Shown here: positions 15,202 through 20,685 of the stretch, piece after piece
Layout: every line of letters begins with the position of its first letter
Numbering within the stretch: the stretch's first letter is position 1
From: Phycisphaerales bacterium UBA1910
GTDB lineage: Bacteria > Planctomycetota > Phycisphaerae > Phycisphaerales > UBA1924
DNA length: 20,685 bases
Direction of reading: 5' to 3'
NCBI GenBank assembly: GCA_002337545.1
Contig: DDGE01000039.1
Coordinates: forward strand, 162,539-183,223
The notes under the pieces: model-generated
What the model was told of the DNA's origin: nothing
Databases searched by the model: none
The model's input: only the letters and a program-made list of their open reading frames with translations
Translations under genes and position numbers: made by a program

Positions 15202-16312
15202 TTACTCCTTGTTCGAGCGTCGACGCTTCAGCTCCGCATCGATGAACGGGTCGAGCTCGCCGCGATCGAGGACATTGCTCGGGTTTGCTTCAACATTCGT
15301 GCGATGATCCTTCACGCGATTATCGTAAAGCACATAGCTGCGGATCTGGGCACCCCAGCCGCGGTGCTCGATCTTGCCGCCCGATGCCTCGGTGATCTCC
15401 CGCTCGCGTTCTTCTTCCGCCATCTGCTCGAGCTTGGCTTGGAGGATCGAGAGTGCCTGCTTGCGGTTCTGAGGCATTTCCTTGTGCGTGCTCGACACGA
15501 CCTGGATACCCGTCGGCTTGTGTGTCACACGGACCGCGGTCGCGACCTTGTTCACATTCTGACCGCCCGGGCCGCTCGATCGTGCAAAGACCACGATGTC
15601 CAGATCCCGATCCGGGATCTCGACATCCACATCCTCAAACTCCGGCGTGATATCCACCGTCGCGAAGCTGGTCTGGCGTTTCCCCTGCGCATTGAAGGGC
15701 GAAACCCGGGCGAGCCGGTGCGTGCCCCGCTCGCAGCTGAGCATACCAAAGGCAAAGGCCCCCTGAACATGCAGAGTGACCGAATCGAGCCCGACCTCGC
15801 TGCCGTGGGATTTTTCGACTTCGTCAAGCTTCCAGCCCTGCTTCTCGCAGTAATACAGATACATGCGGAAGAGCATCTCGCACCAATCGTTGGCTTCGGT
15901 ACCGCCGTCACCGGATGAGATGGTCAGGAAGCAGTCGCGGTGATCGTGCTTGCCGCCTAGGAGCGATTGCGTCTCGATCTTCTCCATCTTCCCGATCAGC
16001 TCGTAGAGCGTCTGGTCCGCCTCTGTGAGGAGATCGCTGTCGCCCTCCTCTTTCGACATCTCGTACGCGAGTTTTGCGTTCTCGAAGTCTTCGGAGACTT
16101 TGTAGATCGGGTCAGTCTGGGCTTTGATAAGCTTGAGCTCGGCGACGATCTCATTGGCCTTCTTCTGATCGTCCCAGAAGTCCGCCTGACCCATCTGGTC
16201 TTCGAGCTCGCTCAGTCGTTGTCTTTTGTTTTCATAGTCAAAGAGAGTCACGGATCGTTACAATCCGCGCCTCTAAGTCGCTGATCACATTGTGATGCGC
16301 TTCAAGATGCAT
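15202..16312 (-). CDS. prfB: Peptide chain release factor 2, with +1 programmed frameshift
   Basis: RF2 releases peptides at UGA and UAA. The gene is in two frames. The ATG at 16312, with AGGAG 5 bases upstream, opens a 24-codon frame ending in CTT followed by an in-frame TGA (16240-16238). Skipping the T at 16240 continues into the long frame to the TAA at 15202, for 369 aa in total. The numbering then fits E. coli RF2 closely: the UGA-specifying SPF motif at 204-206 and the peptidyl-hydrolysis GGQ at 249-251. A GTG at 16251 in the long frame could be mistaken for the start, but it would remove the regulatory N-terminus. Expression should be autoregulated: scarce RF2 lets the ribosome slip at CUU UGA C. 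It is the first gene of a three-gene minus-strand unit. Confidence 0.96.
16237..16243 (-). promoter_or_regulatory. prfB: prfB +1 frameshift site CTT TGA C
   Basis: On the minus strand the codons run GAC TCT CTT TGA C. The heptamer CTTTGAC is the conserved RF2 slip site, with TGA as codon 25 of the zero frame. The AGGGGG-like Shine-Dalgarno stimulator that sits 3 bases before CTT in E. coli is not visible; the preceding bases are ATCCGTGACTCT. Confidence 0.95.
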
Positions 16313-16687: not shown

Positions 16688-17737
16688 GGATTCGAGCCAT
16701 TCCTTCGCGCGAGATTCGCCAAGCTTCGCCGCCTGCTCAGCCCACATGACCGCCTCGTCTGCTCGCCCAGCCCGCTGCAACCACAACGCCGCTTCGAACC
16801 GCAACGCCCCGTTCTCCGGCTGGCGATCAGCCGCGTCCATGACGCGCGATGCCGCATCGTCGAACCGCCCCACCGACCCCAGGCATTCAGCGAGTAAAAT
16901 CACCGCATCCGGACTCATCGCCTGATCCATGGGGAGTGCCATGAGTAGCTCGATCGCGTCCTCAGTCATCCGGAGGCGTTTCAGAGCCCGCGCCTCGATG
17001 AGGATCAGCCCCAGATCGTTGGGCTCGATCTCCCGTGCCTTGCGGATCTGGTCCAGAGCGATCGTGGCCTTGTTCTCACGCATCGCGATCTCGGCACGCA
17101 TGGCGTAGATCCGCGTGTCGCTCGGATTCATTTTCTCCGCGAGCGCCAGGCTCGCCTTTGCTTCATCGAGTTTGTTGAGCTTCTGTTGGATCGCGGCCAG
17201 ATAGAGCGGAGTCTCCGGGTTGCTCGGGTCCAGACGCATCGCCGCGTTGTAATGCCCGAGCGCAATCTCGGGGTTCCCGATGGTGTTGGCGATGGTTCCG
17301 GCCGTGAAGTGGGCGTTCCACGATTCTGGGCCGATCTCGATCCCCGCGAGGTACTGCTCGTAGGCGGGCGCTGCCTGATTTGTCAGCAGGTACAGATCCC
17401 CCAACGCATACCGGAGTTCCTGATCCGCAGGGTAACTCGCGACGGCAGATTGCAGGACCTGTTGCGCCGAGTCGTAATCCTCATTCCGAACATACACCTG
17501 CACCGCACCAAGGATCTCTTCGATCGACTCCATTTCCGCGATCCCTGTTTCCGGGTCTTCCGGATTCCCGGCGGGCGTGACGGGGATTGGCGCCTGCAGG
17601 ATCGACCATACCGCGTATCCGGCAACACCAAGCCCCACAAGCGCCAGGATGCCGAGGATCACGCCGGTCAGGCGGGCACTCCCGGCACGGGATCGGTATC
17701 GAATGCATGCTTTCTGGGTCTTTGAGGGGTATCGCAT
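16679..17737 (-). CDS. Membrane-anchored TPR protein
   Basis: 352 aa from the ATG at 17737 (MRYPSKTQK). The frame opens a little further upstream at 17776, but those residues fall in the valS leader and look non-coding. After a basic N-terminus a single membrane anchor (about residues 23-47, GVILGILALVGLGVAGYAVWSIL) is followed by a Pro-rich linker and then about seven TPR units. Examples are DYDSAQQVLQSAVASYP, IALGHYNAAMRLDPSNPET and LDEAKASLALAEKMNPSD. The domain faces the non-cytoplasmic side if the anchor is an uncleaved signal. Partners are unknown. It is divergent from valS (93 bases apart) and overlaps the preceding plus-strand gene by 9 bases at the 3' ends. Confidence 0.85.
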   Translation of the reverse strand: MRYPSKTQKACIRYRSRAGSARLTGVILGILALVGLGVAGYAVWSILQAPIPVTPAGNPEDPETGIAEMESIEEILGAVQVYVRNEDYDSAQQVLQSAVASYPADQELRYALGDLYLLTNQAAPAYEQYLAGIEIGPESWNAHFTAGTIANTIGNPEIALGHYNAAMRLDPSNPETPLYLAAIQQKLNKLDEAKASLALAEKMNPSDTRIYAMRAEIAMRENKATIALDQIRKAREIEPNDLGLILIEARALKRLRMTEDAIELLMALPMDQAMSPDAVILLAECLGSVGRFDDAASRVMDAADRQPENGALRFEAALWLQRAGRADEAVMWAEQAAKLGESRAKEWLESLP

Positions 17738-17830
17738 ATGCACACGATATCGTCCACGCGTACACTCAGAAACCAAGGAAGTTATGCATTTCTCCCCGTT
17801 TACGCGGGATCACGCAGGGAACGAACCACG

Positions 17831-20685
17831 ATGACCACGGACGCGACCATGCCCCCCATGAGCAAGGCCTACAACCCGGCCGACCACGAATCACGCATCT
17901 GGCAGAAATGGGTCGATGCGAGCGCTTTCAGCGCCGATCCCCAGCGCGTCCTTGACGGCGAGGCCCCCGCCTATTCCGTCCTCATCCCCCCTCCCAATGT
18001 CACCGCCGCCCTCCATCTCGGGCACGCGCTCAACAACTCCCTCCAGGACATCCTTGTCCGCGCCCACCGCATGAAGGGGTACGAGACCCTCTGGATGCCC
18101 GGCACCGATCACGCGGGGATCGCGACCCAGACCATGGTCGACAAACGCCTCAAGGAGCAGGGCAAGGACGGGATCGCTGAGTACAAGAAGAAAGAACTCG
18201 CGGGCGGGAACGGACGCGAGGAGTTCATCAAGCTCGTCCAAGAGTTCAAGGACGAGTTCGAAGCCCGCATCACCCACCAGCTGCAGACGATGGGGTGCTC
18301 GTGTGATTGGGAACGCCAGCGCTTCACGATGGACGACATCTGCGCCCGGGCGGTACGGGAGGCGTTCTTCCAGCTTTTCAAGGACGGGTTGATCCATCGC
18401 GGCAAGCGCCTGGTCAACTGGGACCCGGTCACGCAAACCGCGCTCGCGGACGACGAGGTCGAGATGGAGGAGGTTGACGGGCACTTCTACTACCTCCGCT
18501 ACCCGCTGGTCAAAGAAATCGAGGGCGACCCCACCATCCCCGTCACTTGGGGCGAGCTCGCAGCGCGCGGATACCCCGACGCGGAGAACCACCCCGACGA
18601 CGAGCAAGCGTGGATCACCGTCGCGACGACCCGACCCGAGACCTACATGGGCGACACGGGCGTGGCCGTGAACCCGAAGGACCCTCGCGCCGGCGCGGTG
18701 CGGGGGATGCATGTCATGCTGCCCATCGTCGGGCGGATCATTCCCATCATCGAGGACGACTATGTCGTCCTCCCCGTCAAATACGGCGGCGAGGAGGGCG
18801 ACGCGAAGGCGGAGATGTCCACCGGGTTCCTCAAGGTCACGCCCGCGCACGATCCAAACGACTACATGATCGGTCAGCGACACGACCTTGAGATGATCAA
18901 CATCATGGCCCCCGACGCCTCGATCTCCGACCAGCACGGCTGGGACCGCGAAGAGCGCGGCGAGGACGGGCACATCTTTATTGGCAAGTCCCGCGAGGAC
19001 GCACGCAAGCTCGTGATCAAAGAGTTCAACGCCCGCTCCGTCGCGGAGGGCTCCGAGGGATCGCTGCTCGAGAAGATGGTCCCCCACCGCCACTCAGTCG
19101 GGCATTCGTACCGCTCCCATGTGCCGGTTGAGCCGTACCTGAGCGATCAGTGGTACTGCAAGGTGACCGACGACAAGCTCCGCGGGAATGCCCAGCGGGC
19201 ATTGGTGCTTGAGCAGCGCACCGAGGCAAGTTTGCAGGCATGGCCCGAGTCCGCTCCTAACGAGCCGCGACCGTCAGGGAGCGGTCCCCTCACAAACTAC
19301 TTCATCACTTTCACTACCTATGGAACATGGCTGCATGGTGACGAGCGTGGTTCTGCTGATCGCGACCACAACCTCCCGGGCACACCCTATTTACCTGAGA
19401 ACAATCCACGCGAAGCGTTTGAAGAATCCGAGTTAAAGCACGCCAAGGTCACCCTTGATGAAGTTGAGCGCCGGATCGTTCTTGACTCGATTCAGGAGGT
19501 CTGTATTCACCGGGGCTGGTCGCTTCATGCATGCCATGTGCGAACCAACCATGTCCACATCGTCGTCAGTGCCAATCAAACGCCCGAGCGTGTGATGAAC
19601 GACTTCAAGTCGTATGCGACGCGTCACCTCAAGAATAACGAGGACACTCAACGAGCCGCGACCGTCAGGGAGCGGACATGGACACGACATGGAAGCACCA
19701 GATATTTGAATACGGAAGATTCGTTCAACGCAGCGAAGCACTATGTACTGCATGAGCAGGGCAATGATCTCGGTTCGTGTTTCGAGGGACCGCTCCCTCA
19801 CGGTCGCGGCTCGTTGAAGACCACCACCGACGGCACGATGACCTTCTACCCGTCGCGCTACGCCAAGACCTATGAGACCTGGCACGACAACCTGCGCGAC
19901 TGGTGCATCTCCCGCCAGCTCTGGTGGGGGCATCGGATTCCAGTGTGGAAACTCGAACGCATCACGCCTGCTCAGCTTGAGCAAGCGAAGCTTGTTCTTG
20001 AAGTGGGCTATGACCCATTCCAAGATTCACTTGAAGAGCCCGCGATCCATCGCGAGATGCATGAAGACGGCACGCTATCGGTGTACGCATGTTTTCGTGA
20101 CAATGAGAATCCAGATATCAAGAACTTCGAAGCTGCAGGCTTTACCCAAGACCCCGATGTCCTCGACACCTGGTTCTCCTCCGCCCTTTGGCCGCTGAGC
20201 ACGATGGGTTGGCCGGACGCAACCGCTGCCAAGGACTCGTCCGGGATTGCAGACTTCGAGTCACTCCTTGCCGCGTTCAATCCGACTTCAGTGCTGACCA
20301 CCGCGCGTGAGATCATCACGCTGTGGGTCTCGCGCATGACCATGTTCAACCGGTACTTCCTCGGGCTCGATGAGCAACGAGCCGCGACCGTGAGGGAGCG
20401 GTCCTCAGACAACCCGGGAGAACAAGAAACCCCTCCCTCACGGTCGGGGCTCGTTGGCCCTGCCCCCTTCAAGGATGTCTTCATCCACGCGATGATCCAG
20501 GACGGTGAGGGACGCAAGATGTCCAAGTCTTTGGGCAACGGCGTCGACCCGCTCGACATCATCCACTCGCACGGGTCTGACGCGATGCGCTTCACGCTGT
20601 GTCAGATGACGACGCAGACGCAGGATGTCCGCATGCCCGTCGAGCTCGACGAATCGACCGGCAAGAACACCTCGCCCAAGTTCGA
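17831..20685 (+). CDS. valS: Valyl-tRNA synthetase carrying an in-frame RAYT domain and REP insertions (3' end outside the window)
   Basis: ValRS charges tRNA-Val. The frame is open without interruption from the ATG at 17831 (AGGGA 10 bases upstream) to the window edge, 951 codons. Class I signatures are intact: HLGH at residues 62-65 after PPPNVTAAL, and KMSKS at 896-900. CP1 editing-domain sequence is recognised at TTRPETYMGDTG, and catalytic-core blocks at NLRDWCISRQLWWGHRIPVW and DVLDTWFSSALWP. Between SDQWYCKVTDDKLRG and MTFYPSRYAKTYETW lies a foreign block, residues about 477-662, which is a complete HUH transposase domain bounded by REP palindromes. A second foreign block of about 27 residues (REP pair) sits between TMFNRYFLGL and PFKDVFIHAMIQDG, just before KMSKS. 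Both keep the frame. Whether the protein is active, or whether another valS copy exists, cannot be told here. Confidence 0.95.
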   Translation, partial: MTTDATMPPMSKAYNPADHESRIWQKWVDASAFSADPQRVLDGEAPAYSVLIPPPNVTAALHLGHALNNSLQDILVRAHRMKGYETLWMPGTDHAGIATQTMVDKRLKEQGKDGIAEYKKKELAGGNGREEFIKLVQEFKDEFEARITHQLQTMGCSCDWERQRFTMDDICARAVREAFFQLFKDGLIHRGKRLVNWDPVTQTALADDEVEMEEVDGHFYYLRYPLVKEIEGDPTIPVTWGELAARGYPDAENHPDDEQAWITVATTRPETYMGDTGVAVNPKDPRAGAVRGMHVMLPIVGRIIPIIEDDYVVLPVKYGGEEGDAKAEMSTGFLKVTPAHDPNDYMIGQRHDLEMINIMAPDASISDQHGWDREERGEDGHIFIGKSREDARKLVIKEFNARSVAEGSEGSLLEKMVPHRHSVGHSYRSHVPVEPYLSDQWYCKVTDDKLRGNAQRALVLEQRTEASLQAWPESAPNEPRPSGSGPLTNYFITFTTYGTWLHGDERGSADRDHNLPGTPYLPENNPREAFEESELKHAKVTLDEVERRIVLDSIQEVCIHRGWSLHACHVRTNHVHIVVSANQTPERVMNDFKSYATRHLKNNEDTQRAATVRERTWTRHGSTRYLNTEDSFNAAKHYVLHEQGNDLGSCFEGPLPHGRGSLKTTTDGTMTFYPSRYAKTYETWHDNLRDWCISRQLWWGHRIPVWKLERITPAQLEQAKLVLEVGYDPFQDSLEEPAIHREMHEDGTLSVYACFRDNENPDIKNFEAAGFTQDPDVLDTWFSSALWPLSTMGWPDATAAKDSSGIADFESLLAAFNPTSVLTTAREIITLWVSRMTMFNRYFLGLDEQRAATVRERSSDNPGEQETPPSRSGLVGPAPFKDVFIHAMIQDGEGRKMSKSLGNGVDPLDIIHSHGSDAMRFTLCQMTTQTQDVRMPVELDESTGKNTSPKF
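19261..19286 (+). repeat. REP copy A, left border of the RAYT
   Basis: Forward orientation, with loop variant GTCA. The hairpin part is 19265-19284 (CCGC, GA, CC, loop, GG, GA, GCGG). It is translated in valS as NEPRPSGSG. Upstream, CCGCTCCTAACG (19251-19262) resembles a degenerate inverted arm. Confidence 0.9.
19652..19675 (+). repeat. REP copy B, inside the RAYT coding region
   Basis: Forward orientation, with loop variant GTCA. The hairpin part is 19656-19675. It is translated as QRAATVRER between RHLKNNEDT and TWTRHGSTRYL, a position where relatives have a variable linker. Confidence 0.9.
19788..19813 (-). repeat. REP copy C, right border of the RAYT
   Basis: Reverse orientation to A, B and D, with loop variant GTGA (on its own strand). 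The hairpin part is 19790-19809. It is translated as GPLPHGRGSL, directly after the natural RAYT end (LGSCFE). With copy A it frames the RAYT as an inverted pair. Confidence 0.9.
20376..20455. repeat. REPIN-like inverted REP doublet in valS (copies D and E)
   Basis: Copy D (20378-20403, forward, loop GTGA) and copy E (20430-20453, reverse, loop GTGA) face each other across 26 bases. From AACGAG to CTCGTT the unit is 80 bp. It is translated as about 27 extra residues (QRAATVRER, a Ser/Asn/Glu-rich spacer, then PPSRSGLVG) between FLGLD and PFKDVFIHAM of ValRS. This is the non-autonomous form of the element, mobilised in trans by a RAYT. Copy E differs from the consensus at two positions that pair with each other. 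Confidence 0.88.

Follow-up and report, generated by a model that had tools for sequence, protein, structure and literature searches.

Inteins and other homing elements are inserted in frame into conserved genes, where the same sites are used repeatedly; they form gene-faithful lineages and are exchanged between alleles. Here we analyse a guest of another kind in a 20,685-nucleotide stretch of DNA (the window) from Phycisphaerales bacterium UBA1910 (GenBank assembly GCA_002337545.1, contig DDGE01000039.1, positions 162,539 to 183,223, forward strand), where a predicted REP-associated tyrosine transposase (RAYT), bordered by repetitive extragenic palindromes (REPs), lies inside valS, the gene for valyl-tRNA synthetase (ValRS). 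Its closest described relatives are the REPtrons with TnpA-Y1 class 3 transposases which, in the accessible portion of the paper describing them (PMC6006769), are marked by NHVH, W[TA] and Y----Q and come mainly from Planctomycetes, Acidobacteria and Proteobacteria. The element in valS has in common with them the HuH and Y----Q motifs, inverted flanking repeats that recur in the genome and a host among the Planctomycetes, but its transposase forms an in-frame domain inside an essential synthetase instead of being the product of its own gene. With Rickettsia palindromic elements (RPEs) and intragenic REPs, as presented in the accessible text of PMC3733652, it shares the presence of in-frame palindromic repeats within genes, tRNA synthetase genes included. 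RPEs are short and non-autonomous (20-30 encoded residues for many, clusters up to 82), whereas here a whole transposase is in frame. In-frame REPs and RPEs have already been published, also in synthetase genes (PMC3733652); the literature searched contained no whole RAYT in frame. Unlike inteins, the insert has no splicing domain, is an IS200/IS605-like HUH enzyme and presumably stays in the protein. It also differs from IS200/IS605 transposons such as IS608 and ISDra2 in that it forms no separate gene, has REP-type ends and is embedded in the frame of its host.

Titles and abstract beginnings in the PubMed Central literature gave no report of a RAYT inside a synthetase, most subscription papers lying outside that scope, and no paper in the literature searched brought together 'RAYT' and 'valyl-tRNA synthetase'. 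Long Y1 proteins were discarded in one survey, which also asks by what means and for what reason RAYT genes persist and points to a host benefit yet to be identified (PMC6006769, accessible portion). Embedding in an essential enzyme would give another answer to that question for the lineages described below. We argue that the insert is probably an entire RAYT transposon with REPs on both flanks (a REPtron), which is translated as part of an essential enzyme, persists there as an internal domain and re-colonises the same loop.

A REP-flanked RAYT within the valS frame

The valS gene is a single open frame on the forward strand that starts at ATG 17831 (or 17738) and continues through 20685 past the window end, as supported by Pfam, NCBIfam and an alignment to the ValRS of T. 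thermophilus. Its one protein matches both tRNA-synt_1 (E 2.8e-106) and the Y1_Tnp family PF01797 (E 8.3e-8, residues 543-638) in Pfam, and the best score of an NCBIfam valine--tRNA ligase model was 703.4 bits against a cut-off of 704, the protein being incomplete and interrupted. In the T. thermophilus alignment, residues 362-660 of the window protein are unmatched and the match restarts at residue 661, directly past the insert. The frame contains HLGH (18014..18025, +), the class I synthetase HIGH signature, and KMSKS (20516..20530, +), also a signature of that class; the Y1 transposase domain is placed between the two.

The element extends from 19259 to 19816, and the valS frame stays open throughout. 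It begins with a left REP (AACGAGCCGCGACCGTCAGGGAGCGGTCCC; 19259..19288, +) that reads NEPRPSGSG in frame, continues with a RAYT domain of the TnpA-Y1 class 3 HUH type (about 19289..19765, +; ValRS residues 487-645) supported by Pfam and fold, and ends with an inverted right REP (19786..19815, -) whose in-frame reading is GPLPHGRGS. The right and left REPs form a 30-base inverted repeat with 97% complementarity. Within the domain, the HuH motif reads His-Val-His (19550..19558, +; His574 and His576, residues 574-576 counted from ATG 17831), and the Y----Q signature, as defined in the accessible portion of PMC6006769, runs from Tyr638, the putative nucleophile, to Gln643 (19742..19759, +). All 50 rows shown in a Foldseek search with the whole chimera were synthetases, so we modelled the RAYT domain alone, and the isolated model has a HUH transposase fold. 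The insert has the defining features of TnpA-Y1/RAYT enzymes, HuH and a (putative) catalytic tyrosine in a Y1 fold. Those of class 3 are present as well: the window protein carries NHVH, WT and YVLHEQ, and relatives named from the class 3 phyla occur in the best 80 of 427 class-A loci (class A and B denote two distant RAYT classes, described below). By sequence and fold tests, the insert is a RAYT with REPs in all respects but two, a start of its own and the cut-off of the NCBIfam RAYT model, below which its match falls.

A sequence-only reading of the window had described valS as open across the block, with ValRS sequence on both sides of a RAYT, an HUH transposase, that had landed at a permissive loop and kept the frame. 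The double Pfam match and the T. thermophilus alignment bear this out, the loop is tolerant and variable, and HVH was correctly placed at residues 574-576. The RAYT does lie in valS as claimed, but the limits given for it, 19205..19850, are replaced by the REP-to-REP limits above. Tyr595 had been proposed as catalytic and has to be given up: 23 of 59 stand-alone relatives have Trp at this position, while the column of Tyr638, where Y----Q falls, is invariant across the 54-row alignment. In line with the supposed loss of the RAYT's own start, the 20 codons ahead of the domain contain no ATG, GTG or TTG.

We located the 26-mer core of the REP at 14 sites (at most 3 mismatches) in the 3.5-Mb, 88%-complete source genome and at none with the reversed control, indicating that the repeats are not due to chance. 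The RAYT is therefore flanked by genome-repeated REPs, as in REPtrons. Five of the 14 sites are within valS (at both ends of the element, once within the RAYT and, as a pair, at 20375-20456 in a second in-frame loop), and the remaining nine, at five places (L006, L007, L008, L013 and L014), seem by eye to be intergenic or near gene ends. The left REP reads NEPRPSGSG in the window and in loci L063 and L069, all three of which have GTCAGG; the GTGAGG form, found at 9 of the 14 genomic sites, would create an in-frame TGA at this position.

Occupation of the ValRS loop in related genomes

We retrieved valS from 57 of 60 relatives (G012, G028 and G052 were left out) and obtained 56 ValRS rows with both halves, the window genome included; the half-only L057, L094, L105 and L106 were excluded, so that G009 and G059 have no row. 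A RAYT occupies the same variable loop in 17 of the 56, the window's included, and belongs to class A in 6 and to class B in 11, the latter recognised by LPHWQ..., DHVH, WQ and Y...N. An inverted REP pair borders all 17 inserts, the REPs varying by lineage (by eye). Four more rows were labelled by eye as having REPs without a RAYT, decayed REPs such as those of L101 being scored as empty. In L093, the left arm consists of five near-tandem REP-derived repeats (TSRAREEAG..) that are translated in the ValRS loop ahead of the RAYT.

On the ValRS tree, built with the insert removed, class-A, class-B, REP-only and empty rows are intermixed with 18 changes in total. Scoring empty against the rest gave 14 changes, at least 12 of which are forced by well-supported branches. 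In genus g20, four ValRS that are 75-87% identical carry a class-B RAYT, a class-A RAYT, another class-A RAYT and none, and the two class-A domains are only 50% identical to each other. The mixed tree and the four states within this genus indicate that the site was colonised several times. The sequence-only reading had entertained a single stable landing in an essential-gene refuge, a view that the comparison does not support: the loop is shared by two distant RAYT classes and empty in close sisters, so that it is a recurrent colonisation site with turnover. Such natural pairs of empty and occupied valS offer a setting in which to test movement of the REP-RAYT unit. In the window's genus, the left-flank motif K.W..SRP is found in 11 of 11 empty and 0 of 8 occupied genes (p 1.3e-5, not a clean test, the rows being related and the motif having been picked after viewing them).

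A chimeric assembly, or a decaying second valS copy, is extremely unlikely to account for this arrangement. In its favour, the genome is 88% complete and valS contains a 303-base run of N just past the window (L005, 4225-4527), after which the ValRS C-terminus continues up to a stop; this run may be an assembly gap. The same layout recurs in many independent records, however, and all 20 chimera genomes searched have one valS (split over two contigs in G047), the one-contig assemblies G069 and G095 among them. As a general account we rejected an assembly artefact on these grounds. In the source genome itself, at its 88% completeness, we found neither a second valS, a check that the sequence-only reading had proposed, nor a further RAYT match (E up to 1e-3).

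Hosts and lineages of embedded RAYTs

A pair of searches through 5.8 billion proteins, with scores taken over the RAYT part only, yielded 128 and 81 hits; the listing classified here omits eight of the 128. The hosts of the 201 listed matches are ValRS (126, or 127 if P0185 is counted, which is 'other' by the BLAST rule yet has ValRS Pfam domains), alanyl-tRNA synthetase (AlaRS; 35), a DUF1156-type methylase (18), PglX-like (6) and HrpA-like proteins (3) and one oxidoreductase-like protein, with 12 lacking a host assignment. The window's case is one of many. Source names for RAYT-bearing synthetases vary between tRNA ligases and transposases. The class-B form is present, for example, in P0162 from Phycisphaeraceae bacterium D3-23, whose record name suggests an isolate. 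A strict loop rule was passed by 110 of the 126 ValRS; in 14 the flank alignments overlap at or near the site, P0083 has no right flank, and P0072 carries a RAYT of the AlaRS type in a different loop. AlaRS RAYTs are at one place in 33 of 37 (3 by one flank only) and at a second place in 4 of 37, and the verrucomicrobial AlaRS P0195 is also occupied at the first. These observations suggest that two essential synthetases, ValRS and AlaRS, have fixed loops at which a nuclease domain of ~160 residues is accepted time and again, a point of interest for protein engineering and annotation. AlaRS P0002 and P0003 have two complete RAYT domains each, one at either place, and the HrpA-like helicases P0108 and P0113, each with a RAYT insert, are apparently encoded on one 2.77-Mb contig.

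In an order-wide sample of 251 genomes (E up to 1e-30), 16 of 51 class-A and 12 of 19 class-B matches are in ValRS. A scan of GTDB contigs gave 427 class-A loci; of the best 80, 13 are in ValRS, 10 in AlaRS, 5 in DUF1156 proteins and 5 in other long frames, and 47 are stand-alone, defined as a frame <330 aa without a host-reference match. A weak further class-A match (49 bits) was seen in G079, in a 156-aa frame downstream of the chimeric valS (L118).

On the RAYT trees, residents of one host gene cluster. In class A (208 rows), ValRS residents (71 rows) require 8 changes against a shuffled mean of 59.0 and AlaRS residents 6 against 32.8; in class B (90 rows), the corresponding values are 5 against 15.9 and 1 against 5.9, the shuffles ignoring shared descent throughout. 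The clustering of ValRS residents indicates that lineages stay with their host gene although the site turns over. Apparent host switches are also seen: the tree places the HrpA residents together with a ValRS resident (support 99), and P0072 falls with an AlaRS resident (support 84).

Comparison of the insert with its surroundings directly shows exchange at L024. With codons 0-385 compared to codons 390-590, and tract limits picked after viewing the profile, L024 and L056 differ at 92 of 385 third positions in the ValRS N-part and 100 of 175 in the insert (Fisher p 5e-16), whereas L024 and L064 differ at 234 of 385 and 61 of 175 (Fisher p 2e-9). The RAYT of L024 is of other ancestry than the ValRS around it. 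Taken together, this exchanged insert and the empty sites in sisters imply movement, whether by transposition or by recombination.

Several observations weigh against a mobile REPtron that re-colonises one loop. Only a few host changes are forced by well-supported branches (class A, 2 for ValRS and 1 for AlaRS; class B, 2 and 1), and the class-A tree leaves 109 of its 205 inner branches open. The correlation between RAYT and host distances is weak but significant (Mantel r of 0.33 in A and 0.22 in B; none of 999 permutations reached these values). The host counts given above come from searches that lean to ValRS, with queries taken from or headed by ValRS-resident RAYTs, protein lengths of 0.55-1.75 times the query (523-1664 aa or a like range) admitted in the two protein searches, and a class-B order-wide query that included some ten ValRS residues but not the start of the domain. 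With the general PF01797 profile, 3 of 84 Y1 matches in 101 genomes are in frames >900 aa, indicating that most Y1 transposases are not embedded. Inspection of the flanks by eye revealed no target sequence to which the preference for valS could be traced, and the single REP arms of the window fold no better than shuffles (z -0.3 to -0.7).

The distance correlation indicates that vertical descent accounts for part of the pattern. Together with the small number of forced host changes and with median identities that are alike for RAYT and ValRS (0.56 against 0.58 in A, 0.57 against 0.59 in B), it is what one would expect of an ancient neutral passenger that entered once or a few times early in the Phycisphaerales and was then inherited vertically, with many losses and no present mobility. 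We consider this unlikely, since two distant RAYT classes with different REPs share one site, one genus shows four different states, the insert of L024 was exchanged and the catalytic residues are conserved.

Predicted translation of the insert and further features of the window

Embedded RAYTs differ from stand-alone relatives in the region ahead of the domain. A stop within the preceding 35 codons is found in 0 of 34 embedded copies with DNA available and in 10 of 16 stand-alone relatives, while an ATG within 20 codons is found in 3 of 34 and 12 of 16, respectively. The window RAYT departs here from REPtrons, which have a separate gene with its own start. With any ATG, GTG or TTG within 20 codons counted, 6 of 34 embedded copies have a candidate start, and the nearest TTG or GTG in the window are at 21, then 30 and 31 codons; a separate RAYT product may therefore be made from an internal start codon. 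The ratio of nonsynonymous to synonymous substitution rates (dN/dS) is 0.08-0.13 for three pairs among L024, L059 and L064, eight other pairs having been left out with a RAYT dS >1 or undefined, and such low values point to a translated product.

It is very unlikely that the insert is taken out before the synthetase becomes active, whether as an intein, as an intron or through ribosomal bypassing. The inverted REPs at the insert borders are what might be expected of such removal, but the low dN/dS, the HUH transposase fold and the stop-free 35 codons ahead of all 34 embedded domains argue against it. An intein was rejected, in agreement with the sequence-only reading, as the insert has a Y1 fold and no intein family was matched in Pfam or NCBIfam at E up to 1e-3. 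A group I or II intron or an IStron was likewise rejected, with no intron family match across 17700-20685 (Rfam, E up to 1).

HuH and the tyrosine are both retained in 141 of 144 ValRS residents (70 of 71 in class A, 71 of 73 in class B) and in 41 of 41 AlaRS residents. This retention, with the low dN/dS, the gene-faithful lineages and the preference for two synthetases, might also reflect domestication, in which ValRS or AlaRS put the HUH domain to use, for example to bind hairpins in the synthetase's own mRNA or in tRNA, and it was kept for host benefit; domestication has been proposed for RAYTs at large (PMC8266576; PMC6006769; accessible portions of both). We regard it as distinctly improbable here, given the empty sites in close sisters, the turnover between distant RAYT classes and the fact that these elements also reside in DNA methylases and in an HrpA-like helicase.

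If the insert is instead a REPtron that re-colonises the loop, the ribosome would read straight on and produce a ValRS with a HUH nuclease on flexible linkers, and from the open frame every ValRS molecule would carry this tethered domain. The loop would tolerate the guest while the synthetase still works, and the nuclease would act on REP hairpins, like other RAYTs. Persistence of the element would follow from the tolerant loop and from the cost of imprecise loss, which would break an essential gene. New genomes would be reached by re-insertion at, or recombination into, the same valS loop via its conserved flanks. More tentatively, such elements may represent a distinct life style of mobile DNA: lodged within ValRS, AlaRS and a small number of further essential enzymes, they would be translated as internal domains that are not spliced out, stay faithful to gene and loop, and home from allele to allele like inteins without splicing, by means of a HUH nuclease; we hold this broader view to be possible rather than probable. 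There is a fair chance that embedded RAYTs deserve a class of their own.

Two further REP features are found in valS. A REP copy lies in frame within the RAYT coding sequence (19650..19675, +), between HuH and the tyrosine, and is also present in L063; REP copies within RAYT genes have been reported for subclass 2.4 (PMC6006769, accessible portion). A REP pair without a RAYT, similar to a REPIN, is located in frame in a second valS loop (20375..20402 and 20429..20456, +) and folds as one long hairpin (z -7.0). This hairpin explains the only Rfam matches at E up to 1 across 17700-20685, two sub-threshold microRNA-type matches, both at this pair. Upstream of valS, prfB (release factor 2) occupies 15202-16312 (-) and has a short upstream frame, MHLEAHHNVISDLEARIVTIRDSL, followed by CTT TGA C, which resembles the classic programmed +1 frameshift site.

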